A stretch of DNA of 64,000 bases, taken from an uncultured bacterium (GTDB lineage Bacteria > Verrucomicrobiota > Kiritimatiellia > PWTM01). Position numbers and translations under genes: made by a program. Positions 24,835 to 40,180 of this stretch are shown piece by piece (within the stretch, counting starts at the first letter, position 1; the number at the start of each line of letters is the position of its first letter). Under the pieces are notes generated by a model. It made no database searches. It saw only the letters and a list, made by a program, of their open reading frames with translations, and was not told where the DNA came from. The DNA lies in assembly GCA_938010045.1 (NCBI GenBank), contig CALLFZ010000014.1:1-64000 (forward strand), written 5' to 3'.

Positions 24835-25380
24835 GAGTCCGATTGCGCTGGTGGGGAATGGGGAATGAGCGGCCAATACAGGCGTCGGCGAAGGGAAGGA
24901 AATAACGTTTGCCCCTGTTGCCGGTGTGTCTCGACCCTCCCAAAAACACGAATGCCTCCCTCGGGACAGGCACCTCGGACAACTCCTGGGGACAGGCACG
25001 TCGCTGGCAGCTCGGCTTGGCATTGGGGCATTGGGGACAGGAACCTCACTGGACCTGCGATCGCCGAGCCGTAGGGTCGGACTGGAAGCCGGCCGCTCTA
25101 GTTCCGCCGGTCCCCCGGCGGATGATTTCGTGAAGAATCCTCCGGCGGCAGAGCGCCGGAGCTACAGGGCAAGGATGGGGACAGGCACGCGCCAGCCCAC
25201 GGCCCCTGTAGTTCCGCCGGTCCCCCGGCGGAAGATTTGGTGGAGAAAGCTCCGGCGACAGAGCGCCGGAGCTACAGCAGAGTGCCGGAGCTACAGTGCG
25301 CGGCGGGGGACAGAGGATGGGAAGCCCACTCTTTGCCGACACTTTGATGTGCCGCTCGTCCCCAACAACGCAATCGGCTC
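24835..25380. mobile_element. Composite repeat island 4
   Basis: The left end, GAGTCCGATTGCGCTG (24835-24850), is a variant of the shared terminus; the right end is ACAACGCAATCGGCTC (25365-25380). The left ~150 bases are homologous to the reverse complement of the right part of island 5 (shared text near GGCGTCGGCGAAGG and CACGAATGCCTCC). Two paired-hairpin REP/BIME units follow (25098-25165 and 25208-25294), then the inverted terminal module (GATGGGAAGCCCAC near 25316). No transposase is encoded. Confidence 0.72.
25098..25294. repeat. Two REP/BIME-like units in tandem
   Basis: The first unit (25098-25165) opens with CTAG instead of GTAG and closes in CTAC. The second (25208-25294) opens with GTAG at 25208-25211 and closes twice, GGAGCTAC at about 25268-25275 and again at 25287-25294. 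Between them lies GGGGACAGGCACGCGCC, so the hairpins and the GGGGACAGGCA words are interleaved. Confidence 0.72.
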
Positions 25381-26028
25381 GCTTTCAATCCACTGTGACT
25401 TCTTGTCGGGTGCCTGTCCCCATGTGGTGCCCCCGTTTGGAGCCGCGACCTATGGCGAGCGCCCCCGCGCCGGAGTCCGCGACCAGCGAGTCCGCCGTCT
25501 GCGGCGCGCAGTATTTGGTTGGGAACAGGCGTATGTGTACTTTAACCCGAATTCAGACCCAGCGTCTCACCCCTAAATACGCCACAGCCTCATCGGCTCC
25601 CACGGTTCGTCCGGAGGCCGCAAGTCGCTCCGCGATGAACAGCGCGCGCTGTGCGCGGTGTCTCGCGAAGTGCAACGCCGGCACGTCTATTCGCGCCTGG
25701 TCCCGATCGTGTCCTGCGCCCGGACGGTGCCAATGGCCACCGCATCGTCGCACAAGTGGCGCCGGCAACGTCGGCAGCACCCGTTCGACCCCACCGGTCA
25801 TCATCGGCTAGGCCGGTGGAGTGAATGGCCCCTTGCGACGCAACGTCTCGCGACCGGACCTCCGGACCTCACGGCACTCAAACACGCCGACGGGGCCAGA
25901 TCGATCCCCTGTCACACCAGGGATGATGACCTGCACCCGAGTCCGGCAGGCTCTCCGCCTTACGTCCACCATCGCCGTTGGCAGCCGCGGATAGCAGCGG
26001 TATGCTGCAATCCGCGCCCCGACGAGGC
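25381..26028. other. Intergenic stretch between island 4 and the sensor kinase
   Basis: About 650 bases without a supported gene. One TGCCTGTCCCC word occurs near 25411. No promoter or RNA element stands out. Confidence 0.4.
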
Positions 26029-31458: not shown

Positions 31459-32151
31459 CCCAATCATCACAGGGTGACAACACCATGCCGACCTTCGTTC
31501 GATGCCGGCGCCGGGAACGTCGTCCCCCCGCGAATGGCGCTGCGGTAAACGCATCCATGTGGAGCGCGGCGCCGTTTTGGCTCGGTCAGGCCTGCCGGGT
31601 GGAGTGACAAGCTGCTCGAACTGAGGACGCCAGAGGCAATCGCACCATCAGTGGAGCAGGATCGCCCGCGAACGGCAATACGGCGTTGCCGCCGGACCAA
31701 CATCACACCTTGGCTCCGCACTTCAAGGCACGCAGCCGCGCCCGTGGTGGATCGTGCGGGACCATCGCTGGCATTGCCATGGAGTTCCATGCTTGAACCT
31801 GGCTTCTCAGGTGCCGTCCGATGATGGGACCGCCCACAGCCACGCGACGGCGCCTTCACTGAGCCTGACGCCGCGTGGGACGCCGCGACCGCCTCCCCCT
31901 GCCAAGAACCGTGGCCGAAAGAGTTTTCTTCGTAAGGTGGCGGTGACCCGAAAACGGAGATGCAGTCCGTGGAGAATCAGGCGATCATGCCGTTCACGAA
32001 GGCCGCCATCCACCGCTCGCCCCTCACCACGCATCCCGCGCCAACGGCCGTCTCGGTTGACAATCCCGCTCCGGCGAGGCAGGCTATCCCCCGCTCGGTT
32101 GGTGAACCGCCGTCTGCGGTCCAGTGTCGTACAAGGAGGCGAGTGGCCTTC

Positions 32152-33183
32152 ATGATCGCAATGTCGTTGCACGGGCACTTCGGCCATGTTCAGCAGGTCG
32201 CACAACAGGCGCGCTGGATCGGCGCATGTACGCTCGTCCTCGCCCTCTCGGCCCGTTCGCAGCCCCCGCCGCAGCCCGAGCCGACGGGTCTCGTCCGCAT
32301 CCAGAACGGCATCGTCACCGTCGGCGTCCACCGCGGCATGGGCGGCTCCATTTCGTGGCTGTCCTGGACCGAGCATCCGCAGAACGTCGTGAATCACAGC
32401 GATCCTGGCCGTCTGATTCAGCAGTCGTACTATGCGGGCCGTCCCCTCGACCGGCGGTCGGAGGGACAGTCCCCCCACTGGAGCCCCTGGCCGTGGAATC
32501 CGATCCAGGGCGGCGGCTTCGGCTCCTGGGCGCATGCGAAGATCCTGCAACGGATGGGCGATGGGTCGCTCTTCGGAGAAACCGCGCCGAAGCTGTGGGA
32601 CATGCCCAACGAAACCGCCGCGGCGATCATGCGGCAGTGGACAGGATTCGAACCGGCTTTGTCCAACACGGTCGTGGTCCGATGCGAGTTCATCGCGCTG
32701 CGAAACCCGACGAACGATCGCTGGGGCGTCGCGAGGGCTAGCCCACAGGAGATCCCGGCCTGTTATTTCACGCGAGAGTTTGACCGCGTTCGCAGTTACC
32801 TCGGTGATGGCCAGTGGCGGGACGAGATCGTGAGCCCCGGTCCGCCCTGGCGCCGCGCCTCACCGCCGCGGAATGCGATGGCCGTGTTCAACGCCGACGG
32901 CCGCGGCATCGCGGTGTTCAGTCCGGCCGCGACTCAGCCTTGGAACTACGGCGTCCACGGCCCGCCCCAACCCTCCGCGCCGGAGGCCGGGCCTTGCGTC
33001 CATCTCGCCCCGATCGATCGCGCGCTGATGATGGGGCCGCGATTTGTCTACCGCTACCGCTATTGGCTGGTCGTGGGCACGGCGGCTGAGGTGGCCGCAA
33101 GCCTCGACCACCTTCTCGCGAGGCACGCCAACGAACGGGCCGACGTCCAGCCCCAACCGCCCCCCCAGGACCTCGCCCGATAA
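32152..33183 (+). CDS. Exported protein of unknown function, possibly carbohydrate-related
   Basis: A 343-aa protein with a signal-like hydrophobic segment (RWIGACTLVLALSARSQ). The mature part begins LVRIQNGIVTVGVHRGMGGS and contains LIQQSYYAGRPLDR, PWPWNPIQGGGFG and RYRYWLVVGT. The aromatic-rich text looks like a beta-sandwich seen in secreted proteins of polysaccharide degraders, but I cannot assign a family or activity. An AAGGAGG lies 12 bases before ATG 32152; GTG 32143 is an alternative. The next gene is a sulfatase pseudogene. Confidence 0.72.
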   Translation: MIAMSLHGHFGHVQQVAQQARWIGACTLVLALSARSQPPPQPEPTGLVRIQNGIVTVGVHRGMGGSISWLSWTEHPQNVVNHSDPGRLIQQSYYAGRPLDRRSEGQSPHWSPWPWNPIQGGGFGSWAHAKILQRMGDGSLFGETAPKLWDMPNETAAAIMRQWTGFEPALSNTVVVRCEFIALRNPTNDRWGVARASPQEIPACYFTREFDRVRSYLGDGQWRDEIVSPGPPWRRASPPRNAMAVFNADGRGIAVFSPAATQPWNYGVHGPPQPSAPEAGPCVHLAPIDRALMMGPRFVYRYRYWLVVGTAAEVAASLDHLLARHANERADVQPQPPPQDLAR

Positions 33184-33185
33184 AC

Positions 33186-33903
33186 CGTCTGATCTCGATC
33201 GCATGGCTGGCCGGCATAGCCATCACAACCCTCGCCGCCCCATTGCCCAGCCGGCTCAACGTCGTGTTCATCCTGGCCGACGACCTCGGCTGAGGCGACA
33301 CAACGCTCCACGGCACGACGAGCTTTTATCGCCCGCCCAACATCGAGCGTCTCGCCCGCCGCGGCATGACATTCACTCGCGCGTATGCCGCCAAGTCCCC
33401 TTTGTTCCCCCACTCGCGCCGCGATCCTCACGGGTCGAAGCGCCGCACGAATCGGCATCACCGCGCCAGTGTGCCATCAGCCCGAGGAGGTGTTGGCATC
33501 GTCCGTTGACCGCTCCGGCTCGCCAGAGTTGCCCGCGCGGCCCGTGCGATCGGTCACGCGTCTCGCCACCACATACCGCACGATCGCCCTCGCGCTCAAG
33601 GAGGCGGGCTACGCGACCGCTCACTTCGGCAAGTGGCACCTCGGTCCCGAACCGTATTCCCCCCTTCAACATGGCTTTGATGTGGACCTACCGCACTGGC
33701 CCGGGCCGGGCCCCAGCGGCGGTTACCTCGCGCCATGGAAGTTCAAGAATTTTGCCGCCCGATCGCCCGGCGAACCTATTGAGGCCCGCATGGCGACGGA
33801 GGCGGTTCGTTGAAAGGAGGCAAACCGCGACCGTCCATTTTTCCTCAATTATTGGGCCTTCAGCGTCCATGCGCCCTTCGAGGCGAAGCCATCGCGAATC
33901 GAG
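33186..33903 (+). pseudogene. Sulfatase, multiply disrupted and cut by repeat island 5
   Basis: The reading starts with a signal-like stretch and RLNVVFILADDLG, where the expected Trp codon of DDLGWGD is TGA (33291-33293). It continues [23 protein letters not shown], shifts frame near 33390, and resumes [15 protein letters not shown] with an intact formylglycine motif, then [19 protein letters not shown]. After a stop near 33813 another frame gives RPFFLNYWAFSVHAPFEAKPS, and homology ends exactly where GAGCCGATTGCGCTGT of island 5 begins (33904). The rest of the gene is absent. Confidence 0.85.
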
Positions 33904-35016
33904 GAGCCGATTGCGCTGTGGATGGTTTTGATGGGTAAGCCGAGAAGGCTGAATGCGCGTAGGGCGAACATCTTCGTGATCGAGCCGAACAACCTCGGCT
34001 TCCGCGTCCTCAACCGTCGCTTCCCCCTTCGGAGAGCCACTTCGAGATCGGCCTCCTCCCTCCTCGCTCGTGTGCTCCAAGTTCCGGCCTGCTGCGATCG
34101 TCGAGCCGTAGGGTCGGACTGGAAGCCGGCCGCTGTAGTTCCGCCGGTCCCCTGGCGGATGATTTCGTGAAGAATCCTCCGGCGGCAGAGCGCCGGAGCT
34201 ACAGCAGAGCGTCGGAGCTACAGGGCAAGGATGGGGACAGGCACGCGCCAGCCCACAGCCGCTGTAGTTCCGCCGGTCCCCCGGCGGAAGATTTCGTGAA
34301 GAATCCTCCGGCGGCAGAGCGCCGGAGCTACAGCAGAGCGTCGGGCCTGCTGCAACGCTGGGGACAGATGGGGACAGGCACATACTGTCGCGCGCCAGCC
34401 CACAGCCGCTGTAGTTCCGCCGGTCCCCCGGCGGAAAATTTTGGGAAGAATCCTCCGGCGGCGGAGCGCCGGAGCTACAGCAGTGCGCCGGAGCTACAGC
34501 GGGCGGGAGACCATCCGCTAGAGCTGCGCGCCGCAGACGGCGGCCTCGCTGCTCGCGGGCTTCGGCGTGGAGCCGTTTGTCATCGCCCGCGGCTCCACAT
34601 GGCCACATGGCCACATGGGGACAGGCACCCGCCATGAAGTCACAGTGGATTGAAAGCGAGATCCTTGCATCGCCTGCGCATGTGCCTGTCCCTATCACGG
34701 CTGCGGCCCATGACGGCTCCATGGCGGCCGAGGCGAGGCGACTGACGCCCAGCGCCCGATCGGCAGTACGTGCCTATCCCCAACTGCCCGCAACTACCGC
34801 GCTGCTTGCCCCAGCAACCCCAAAGCGGACAGGCTGCCGGCCTCCGATCGGCGCCCCCAGCATCCCGCGCGACGTGCCTGTCCCGAAGGAGGCATTCGTG
34901 CTTTTGGGGATGCTTTTGGGGAGGGGCGAGAAACACTGGCGATGGGGCAACCGCGATTTTCCTGCCTTCGCCGACGCCTGAATTGGCCGCTCATTCCCCA
35001 ACAGCGCAATCGGCCG
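33904..35016. mobile_element. Composite repeat island 5 (largest)
   Basis: This copy is bounded by GAGCCGATTGCGCTGT (33904-33919) and ACAGCGCAATCGGCCG (35001-35016, two end mismatches). Contents: the ~230-base module (33904-34134), three paired-hairpin REP/BIME units (34135-34221, 34264-34331, 34411-34497), several GGGGACAGGCAC or TGCCTGTCCC words, and a right part homologous in inverse orientation to the left of island 4. It abuts a truncated sulfatase on the left, and the TPP riboswitch begins 52 bases to its right. No transposase gene is inside. Confidence 0.78.
34135..34497. repeat. Three REP/BIME-like units
   Basis: Each unit starts GTAG-TTCCGCCGG (34135, 34264, 34411) and ends in GGAGCTAC. 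The inner spacer GATTTCGTGAAGAATCC is nearly identical in the first two and varied in the third. Half units are added after the first and third. GGGGACAGGCA words sit between them, as in island 4. Confidence 0.75.
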
Positions 35017-35067
35017 CGTTTCCGGTTCATAGTTGACGCTGCTGCCGTCCTCGCGTAGGTTGGCGTT

Positions 35068-35167
35068 GGTCGCTGGGGGAGCTCCGAATCAAATGGAGCT
35101 GAGACCGCCGGTGGCGGCGGAAACCCCGCGAACCTGATCCGGATCATGCCGGCGTAGGGAAGCGACC
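35068..35167 (+). promoter_or_regulatory. Thiamine pyrophosphate (TPP) riboswitch
   Basis: The conserved THI-box elements are readable: P1 GGTCGCT (35068-35074) pairing with AGCGACC (35161-35167), GGGGGAGC, GGAGCTGAGA, then AACCTGATCCGGATCATGCC and GGCGTAGGGAAGC. The order and spacing match TPP aptamers. It lies 49 bases upstream of thiC, so high TPP should shut off thiamine synthesis. Confidence 0.95.
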
Positions 35168-35184
35168 GCCTTCCGAGGCCGTTG

Positions 35185-35211
35185 CCTCCGCCCGGCAGTT
35201 TAACCCGGAGG
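35185..35211 (+). promoter_or_regulatory. Shine-Dalgarno-sequestering hairpin of thiC
   Basis: CCTCCG (35185-35190) can pair with CGGAGG (35206-35211), which is the ribosome binding site of thiC (ATG at 35217). Placed directly after the TPP aptamer and without a T-run, this suggests translational rather than transcriptional control. Confidence 0.55.
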
Positions 35212-35216
35212 TTCCG

Positions 35217-36515
35217 ATGGCCGACCGTACGTTGATGGAGTTGGCGCGCGACGGCGAAACACCGTCGGCGGTGGTGGAGGTCGCGCGCAACGAAGGGTTG
35301 CCGCCGGAGAGCATCTGTGAAGGATTGGCCGCGGGCCGTATTGTCATCCCGGCCAACCGCCGGCACTCGAACCTTCGACCGGTCGGGATCGGGCGGGCGT
35401 TGCGCACGAAGGTCAATGCGAACATCGGGACCTCCGCTCAGGCCGGGACACTCGTCGGCGAGCTGGAGAAACTGCGAGTCGCACTCGAAGCGGGTGCTGA
35501 CGCAGTCATGGACCTGAGCACGGGCCCGAACGCCGGAACGATCCGCCGCGAGCTGCTGGCGCGCTGTCCGAAACCGTTCGGGACCGTGCCGGTGTACGAT
35601 GCCGCCGCCGGTGTGGAGGATCCGGCCGACCTCGCCGCCGACGATTGGCTGCGGGCGATTGAACGGCATGCGGCCGATGGCGTGGACTTCATGACCATCC
35701 ACGCCGGCCTCCGTCGCGCGCACATCCCGCTGGCGCGCCGCCGCCTCGTGGGTATCGTCAGCCGCGGCGGCGGACTGCTCGCGCACTGGATGAGTCGCCA
35801 CGGTGAGGAGAACCCACTGTACACGCGGTTCGACGACATTCTCGCGATCTGCCGCGCCCACGAGGTGACGCTCTCGCTCGGCGACGGTCTGCGGCCGGGA
35901 TGTCTCGCCGATGCTTCCGACGAGGCCCAGTTCGCGGAACTGGCCGTGCTGGGCGAACTCGTGCGGCGCGCGCGCGCGGCCGGCGTGCAGGCGATGGTCG
36001 AGGGGCCGGGCCACATCCCCCTCGATCAGATCGAATCGAATATGCGTCGCGAGCGCGAACTGTGTGATGATGCGCCGTTCTACGTCCTCGGTCCCGTCGT
36101 CGCCGACTGCGGTGCTGGTCGCGATCACATCGCGGCAGCGATTGGCGGCGCATGGGCCGCGTTCCACGGCGCCGCGATGCTCTGCTACGTGACGCCGACC
36201 GAACACCTCGGCCTGCCCGACGCCGCCGACGTCCGCGAGGGCGTCGCGGTGTTCCGACTCGCCGCGCACGCCGCCGACACCGCGCTGCGGCGTCCCGGGG
36301 CTCGCGAGCGCGACGATGCGATGTCGCGAGCCCGAAAGCGGTTTGATTGGCCCACGCAGTTTCGGCTCGCGCTCGATCCGGACCGGGCGCAAGAGGTGTG
36401 GCGACGAACGCGGACCGCGGCCGGTCTCTCCTCCGAGCCCGCCGAGGCCGAACCTTGCACCATGTGCGGTCCGAAGTTCTGCCCGATGCGGGGTCAGGCC
36501 GCCGCGAACGACTGA
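35217..36515 (+). CDS. thiC: Phosphomethylpyrimidine synthase
   Basis: A 432-aa radical-SAM-type enzyme that rearranges aminoimidazole ribotide to the thiamine pyrimidine (HMP-P). Core motifs are KVNANIGTS, DAVMDLSTGPN, GVDFMTIHAG, SRGGGLLAHWM, EGPGHIPLDQIE, GAAMLCYVTPTEHLGLP, and the C-terminal iron-sulfur cluster motif C414-x2-C417-x4-C422 (CTMCGPKFC). It lacks the N-terminal extension of the longer E. coli form. It is controlled by the TPP riboswitch upstream and stands without other thi genes. Confidence 0.97.
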   Translation: MADRTLMELARDGETPSAVVEVARNEGLPPESICEGLAAGRIVIPANRRHSNLRPVGIGRALRTKVNANIGTSAQAGTLVGELEKLRVALEAGADAVMDLSTGPNAGTIRRELLARCPKPFGTVPVYDAAAGVEDPADLAADDWLRAIERHAADGVDFMTIHAGLRRAHIPLARRRLVGIVSRGGGLLAHWMSRHGEENPLYTRFDDILAICRAHEVTLSLGDGLRPGCLADASDEAQFAELAVLGELVRRARAAGVQAMVEGPGHIPLDQIESNMRRERELCDDAPFYVLGPVVADCGAGRDHIAAAIGGAWAAFHGAAMLCYVTPTEHLGLPDAADVREGVAVFRLAAHAADTALRRPGARERDDAMSRARKRFDWPTQFRLALDPDRAQEVWRRTRTAAGLSSEPAEAEPCTMCGPKFCPMRGQAAAND

Positions 36516-39564: not shown

Positions 39565-40180
39565 GAGCCCATTACGCTGTCGGGGACGAGCGGTGCATCA
39601 AAGTGTCGTCAAAGAGTGGGCTTCCCATCCTCTGTCCCCAGATTCCGCTCCCAACCTCGCGCGTGTGCCTGTCCCCATCAGTCCCGCGACCGTGGGCTGG
39701 CGTGTGCCTGTCCCTATCCTCGGCGACCGTGGGCTGGCGTGTGCCTGTCCCTATCCTCGCACTGTAGCTGCGGCGCTCTGCTGTAGCTCCGGCGCTCTGC
39801 CGCCGGAGCTTTCTCCCCCAGATCTTCCGCCGGAGGACCGGCGGAACTACAGCGGCGTCCATCCGCTGCGACCGCCGTCACGCGCGACTCGAATCTTCCG
39901 CCGGAGGACCGGCGGAACTACAGCGGCCGGCTTCCACCCCGACCACGGCGCGGCGATTGCAGGGCACGCGAGCTCTCACCCGGTACGGCGCAGGCCGGAA
40001 CTCGACGAACAACGATCTGAGGAGGAAAGAGGCCGATCTCGAACCAGCTCTCCGAGGGCGGAAGCGACGGTTGAGGACGCGGAGGCCGAGGTTGTTCGGT
40101 TCGATCACGAAGATCTTCGCCCTTCGCGCAGTCCGCCTTCTTGTCTTACCCATCAAAACCATGCACAGCGCAATCGGCTC
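39565..40180. mobile_element. Composite repeat island 6
   Basis: Bounded by GAGCCCATTACGCTGT (39565-39580, two mismatches) and ACAGCGCAATCGGCTC (40165-40180, perfect inverse). It holds the terminal module in plus orientation (GGGCTTCCCATCC near 39619, TGCCTGTCCC words near 39666, 39705, 39742), an inverted paired-hairpin REP/BIME (39783-39850), an extra single REP (39895-39921), and the ~230-base module in reverse (39922-40180). This module order is the mirror of islands 2 and 5. The bases to 40303 hold nothing recognised. Confidence 0.78.

Follow-up and report, generated by a model that had tools for sequence, protein, structure and literature searches.

A sulfatase pseudogene that ends exactly at the terminus of a MITE-like element, which looks like a fusion of two transposon copies

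The window analyzed here is a stretch of 64,000 nucleotides from the draft genome of an uncultured bacterium of the Kiritimatiellia (contig CALLFZ010000014.1), and coordinates refer to this window unless another sequence is named. A sulfatase remnant and a repeat island, termed island 5, lie between an intact gene and thiC. The features of this locus are as follows.

31960–33183, + strand: intact upstream gene of 407 aa with no Pfam match, the left syntenic marker (64% homologue near thiC in the congener G001)
33204–33903, + strand: sulfatase pseudogene, 5' part only (PF00884 in two frames; relatives L082, L083 and L084)
33291–33293, + strand: TGA replacing the Trp of DDLGWGD (sequence reading)
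33393–33403, + strand: single frameshift region between the two sulfatase frames (frame reading, relatives)
33403–33417, + strand: intact CSPTR motif (sequence reading)
33811–33813, + strand: another in-frame TGA, where L082 has Trp (comparison with L082)
33904–35016, no strand assigned: island 5, a transposon-derived element of 1113 bp with its B end on the left and its A end on the right (end profiles, pairing, coverage)
33904–33919, + strand: B-side terminal inverted repeat, a perfect 16-mer (16/16 match)
33904–34506, + strand: half apparently from a subfamily-I element, with the B end and three palindromic units; nearest relative L014 (similarity, distances)
34108–34500, + strand: a G+C-rich palindromic unit of family D1, present three times (repeat analysis)
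34508–35016, − strand: half apparently from a subfamily-II element, with the internal part and the A end; the B-terminal ~80 bp are missing (similarity, distances)
35001–35016, − strand: A-side terminal inverted repeat, with the outer two bases CG for GA (14/16 match)
35065–35177, + strand: TPP riboswitch of thiC (homology to G001 begins at ~35054)
35217–36515, + strand: thiC, the right syntenic marker (Pfam; G001 homologue 83%)

The remnant matches PF00884 over profile positions 2–45 and 49–181 of 301, one stretch per frame, with scores of 28 and 45 bits against a cut-off of 25 (TGA read as W). These two stretches and the CSPTR motif, which is the sulfatase signature and is intact from 33403 as the first-pass annotation had read it, are what the remnant has in common with sulfatases of this family, whereas its truncation, two TGA codons and one frameshift mark it as a pseudogene. 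The profile is unmatched from about position 182 to its end at 301, and the locus holds no complete open gene. No upstream in-frame ATG or GTG start was found for the remnant, only a TTG at 33243. The TGA in place of the Trp of DDLGWGD, also noticed in the first pass, is present at 33291; the count of at least two frameshifts had to be corrected to one, between the frames of 33204 and 33403, the other lesion being the second TGA at 33811. Both TGA codons align with Trp positions of L082. A code change in which TGA specifies Trp was nevertheless set aside, because the main frame of the remnant still has four TGG codons and 50 of the 53 PF00884 matches in the same genome are without an internal stop. 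The three matches with one TGA are the remnant itself, counted as two rows, and one at G000:C1 9817. The sulfatase at G000:C1 9450–10281, in two pieces and with one TGA, is probably a second pseudogene among the approximately 50 sulfatases of this genome.

The sulfatase frame from CSPTR to VHAPFEAKPSRIE covers 33403–33903 and can be followed ungapped to the residues RIE, the last base being 33903; past this point it would read EPIALW, which is element sequence. The 16-mer GAGCCGATTGCGCTGT starts at 33904, directly after the last sulfatase base, and the earlier observation that sulfatase homology stops at the start of the 16-mer is thus confirmed to the base. Among the 38 genomes searched, the nearest relatives of the remnant were L082, L083 and L084 (66%, 63% and 60% identity, the last from a congener). 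These genes have no internal stops and extend more than 240 residues beyond the break, which rules out a natural sulfatase end at 33903 and answers the comparison with intact relatives proposed in the first pass. No genome with a sulfatase ending naturally at this position was found in the search.

With up to 3 mismatches, GAGCCGATTGCGCTGT occurs 12 times in the window, compared with 1.5 expected, and the 3.2-Mb draft genome contains 28 exact copies (0 for the reversed control). The 16-mer is present in 6 of the 38 searched genomes, the own genome counted; the copies elsewhere number 22 in G005, 35 in G014, 3 in G008 and 1 each in G002 and G003, and many of those in G005, G008 and G014 are situated close to contig ends, at distances of a few hundred bases at most. 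A 20-base version matched 30 stretches in the genome contig database, almost all of them belonging to the isolate CSSed11_284R1 (PVC group) or to one of two uncultured bins, and was also matched singly in Halalkalirubrum, Geomonas and actinobacterial records.

The sequence just inside the 16-mer was described by two end profiles, A and B, built from the stretches around exact and B-end hits. With these profiles, 83 ends were found in 47 sequences of the genome (the window and 46 stretches); since these sequences were selected for their proximity to known hits, and one listing scored 40 of the 95 candidate B ends of the genome, the true copy number is higher than the number counted. The ends pair head to head and face inward, with terminal inverted repeats at both sides, and 25 of the 26 pairs consist of one A and one B end. 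Paired elements are 404–1113 bp long, except for a 296-bp one located where a contig begins. Their 9-bp flanks agree at 7/9 or better in 8 of the 26 pairs, three of them perfectly (window 39565–40180, L010 and L014), compared with 1 of 650 shuffled partners and none at 9/9. No functional transposase was seen within the elements of this genome using a C-terminal transposase probe. The 16-mer forms the terminal inverted repeats of short, non-autonomous, MITE-like DNA transposons of ~0.4–1.1 kb that make 9-bp target duplications; its paired inverted ends and the duplications in other copies bear out the first-pass view of it as a true element end.

The family resembles bacterial MITEs, as characterized in a review (PMC10969869), in being short and without a transposase gene, with paired terminal inverted repeats, target duplications and many copies. 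It differs from them in its long copies (404–1113 bp in complete pairs), its palindromic units and its GGGGACAGGCAC motifs. This likeness was judged by features. The review describes MITEs as hotspots for homologous recombination (PMC10969869). A literature search, judged by titles, found no publication on this transposon family. The G+C-rich palindromic unit, CTGTAGTTCCGCCGGTCCCCCGGCGGAA...CGCCGGAGCTACAG, is ~95–117 bp long and is repeated within subfamily-I elements in many islands; it is possibly an element within the element.

A candidate source of transposase was traced through the 907-bp copy L118 of G005, which carries transposase relics in several frames between the same terminal inverted repeats. 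Its C-terminal transposase piece led to L162 in G017 (81%), an open frame of 376 aa that is cut by the contig start and is followed after ~140 bp by GAGCCGTTTGCGCTGT, with one mismatch to the 16-mer. The L162 protein has a PF01609 DDE_Tnp_1 domain (60 bits against a cut-off of 23). Its best NCBIfam match was NF033551 (IS1182) with 93.2 bits, below the equivalog cut-off of 270, and the next was IS5_4 with 58 bits against a cut-off of 140; it is therefore related to IS1182 and IS5, yet by these models not a member of either. The elements may derive from an insertion sequence whose DDE transposase is a distant relative of IS1182/IS5. When applied to the own genome, the C-terminal probe gave 7 partial matches, three of them with an internal stop, and no intact transposase; a complete autonomous copy, with both terminal inverted repeats and a whole transposase, was not seen either. 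Since no intact transposase was seen, the elements of this genome appear to be immobile now or to have depended on a source since lost. In plasmid records, 11 records contained relatives of the transposase, all below 60% identity.

The borders of island 5 are sharp. When 33701–35220 was compared with other stretches of the same genome, repeat coverage was 0 up to 33900, ~26 in 33901–33920 and 0 after 35016; as the coverage steps at 33904 and 35016, both borders are exact element ends. Island 5 itself shows no target duplication of the kind seen in other copies: its flanks agree at 5 of 9 bases, and agreement of 5/9 or better was reached by 40 of the 650 shuffled pairs. A decayed duplication may conceivably be hidden in these five agreeing bases. 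The two halves of the island also differ in their relatives. The left ~600 bp resemble copies of subfamily I, among them L014 (87% over 320 bp), and the right ~500 bp resemble subfamily-II copies, including the island at 24.8–25.6 kb, and carry a subfamily-II A terminus. The distance between island 5 and L014 is 0.03 at the B end and 0.41 at the A end. Seven other subfamily-I A ends differ from that of L014 by no more than 0.13, and the A ends of subfamily I group in a clade (support 1.0) outside which the A end of island 5 falls.

Pairing within subfamilies was considered as a general rule and dropped because of a weak Mantel test: over all 25 A+B pairs, A and B distances were weakly correlated (r 0.10), and 230 of 2000 permutations gave a value as high. 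L177 and L195 are counter-cases, sharing the B type of island 5 yet having divergent A ends. The mismatch of the ends of island 5 is therefore a suggestive, though not conclusive, sign of fusion. Because no target duplication is found and the ends are of different subfamilies, island 5 looks like a fusion of two elements. An irregular island is also present at 24836–25599, where a subfamily-II element (A end at 24836, weak B end at 25599) encloses a subfamily-I element; the latter has an exact A end at 25380 and no B end, giving the sole A+A pair of the 26.

The first-pass annotation had suggested looking for the missing 3' part beyond the island or elsewhere, and these searches did not recover it. 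To the right of island 5 no sulfatase sequence was found, the TPP riboswitch coming next. The C-terminal 243 residues of L082 matched 46 places in the own genome, the best at 48% within an open frame of 1006 aa; these are paralogues, and none of the 46 matches reaches the 60–66% identity of the remnant's relatives. The 3' part is absent from the assembly, a draft of 49 contigs at ~98% completeness in which it could sit in a gap. Relocation or inversion was rejected, as the junction of an A end with CGAATCGAG is absent genome-wide (0 matches with up to 3 mismatches), and the best A-end flank in the set agrees with the sulfatase flank CGAATCGAG at 5/9. The B-end flank of L177 agrees at 7/9 with the right flank of island 5, which was taken as chance given that 83 ends were tested.

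The outer neighbours of the locus are conserved in the congener G001, where the upstream gene (64%) and thiC (83%) have the same order and orientation and are 3.6 kb apart. Similarity between the window and G001 breaks off shortly after the upstream gene; it is found again from 35054 onward, 38 bases to the right of island 5. In G001 the interval between the two markers contains an arabinofuranosidase-like gene and no sulfatase, and the state before the event is therefore not seen directly; a sulfatase may never have stood at this position in G001. The arabinofuranosidase gene is present in all three congeners searched (G001, G002 and G003; broken in G002) and gave 0 matches in the own genome. 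This synteny is consistent with a deletion whose end lies in island 5, and it speaks against misassembly.

The junction had been described in the first pass as one of insertion or deletion, and the evidence favours both, in that order: island 5 lacks a duplication (5/9), its ends belong to two subfamilies, and the 3' part was not found. We consider it probable that a subfamily-I element was inserted into the sulfatase gene and that a deletion then fused two elements. The family would have been mobilized at some time by a DDE transposase of the IS1182/IS5 neighbourhood, and the B terminus of a subfamily-I copy inserted into the sulfatase gene would form the boundary seen at 33904. Subsequently, a deletion running from this copy to a subfamily-II copy just upstream of the thiC TPP riboswitch would have taken the right part of the first copy, the 3' part of the sulfatase and all intervening DNA, together with the left portion of the second copy, leaving the fused island 33904–35016. 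The sulfatase remnant would have decayed afterwards, or its decay may already have begun. We infer this order of events and the recombination mechanism from the structure of the locus.

Adjacent deletions are an established behaviour of IS elements, and the locus might instead result from a one-ended transposase event, in which the B end attacked the sulfatase gene in cis and deleted the adjacent DNA, with no recombination between two copies. The exact B junction without a matching duplication would fit such an event, as would the island at 24.8–25.6 kb, where likewise one subfamily-I end is exact and the opposite side is truncated. However, a whole subfamily-I element with its A end would be expected, the sole A end found is that of subfamily II, and a second rearrangement would be needed; we regard this course as unlikely. 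Pseudogenes shrink, and an old single insertion could have been followed by loss of the sulfatase 3' half through small deletions and by blurring of the target duplication through mutation, for which the 5/9 agreeing flank bases may be cited. This history is quite improbable, as nothing of the 3' half remains between 35016 and the riboswitch, the sharp right border requires that a deletion stopped precisely at the A terminus or within it, and the ends come from unlike subfamilies. Although the draft has 49 contigs and family copies lie at contig ends in relatives, a misjoin of two loci inside the repeat is very improbable, because G001 also has the upstream gene close to thiC, with order and orientation unchanged; misjoins usually arise at identical stretches, whereas the left half shares no more than 87% identity with its nearest copy (L014); and the other half of the misjoin was not found.

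With insertion followed by deletion as the preferred reading, the novelty lies in the identity of the repeats; the mechanism is ordinary, a usual kind of genome decay. Unexplained repeat islands become a defined transposon family with known ends, a known duplication length and a candidate source transposase, and other islands in these genomes can now be read as insertions or deletion scars. The locus provides one concrete loss of polysaccharide-degradation genes beside such an element, namely the sulfatase and possibly the arabinofuranosidase. Because a second fused or nested island lies 9 kb away (24.8–25.6 kb), and island 5 would have removed part of the sulfatase and perhaps the whole arabinofuranosidase gene, fusion of unlike family copies might repeatedly have led to gene loss in this lineage and many repeat islands might be deletion scars, a generalization that we offer tentatively and hold to be doubtful.

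Further repeats were observed in the window. The 12-mer GTGCCTGTCCCC has 14 copies, 7 per strand and mostly within islands, at 146, 4029, 20493, 24988, 25177, 25410, 31133, 31219, 31249, 31438, 34233, 34370, 34617 and 39665; its cluster at 31.1–31.4 kb has no 16-mer end nearby. In G005, three B ends show 100% identity to one another across 140 bp; together with the copies near contig ends in G005, G008 and G014, this suggests recent multiplication of the family there.
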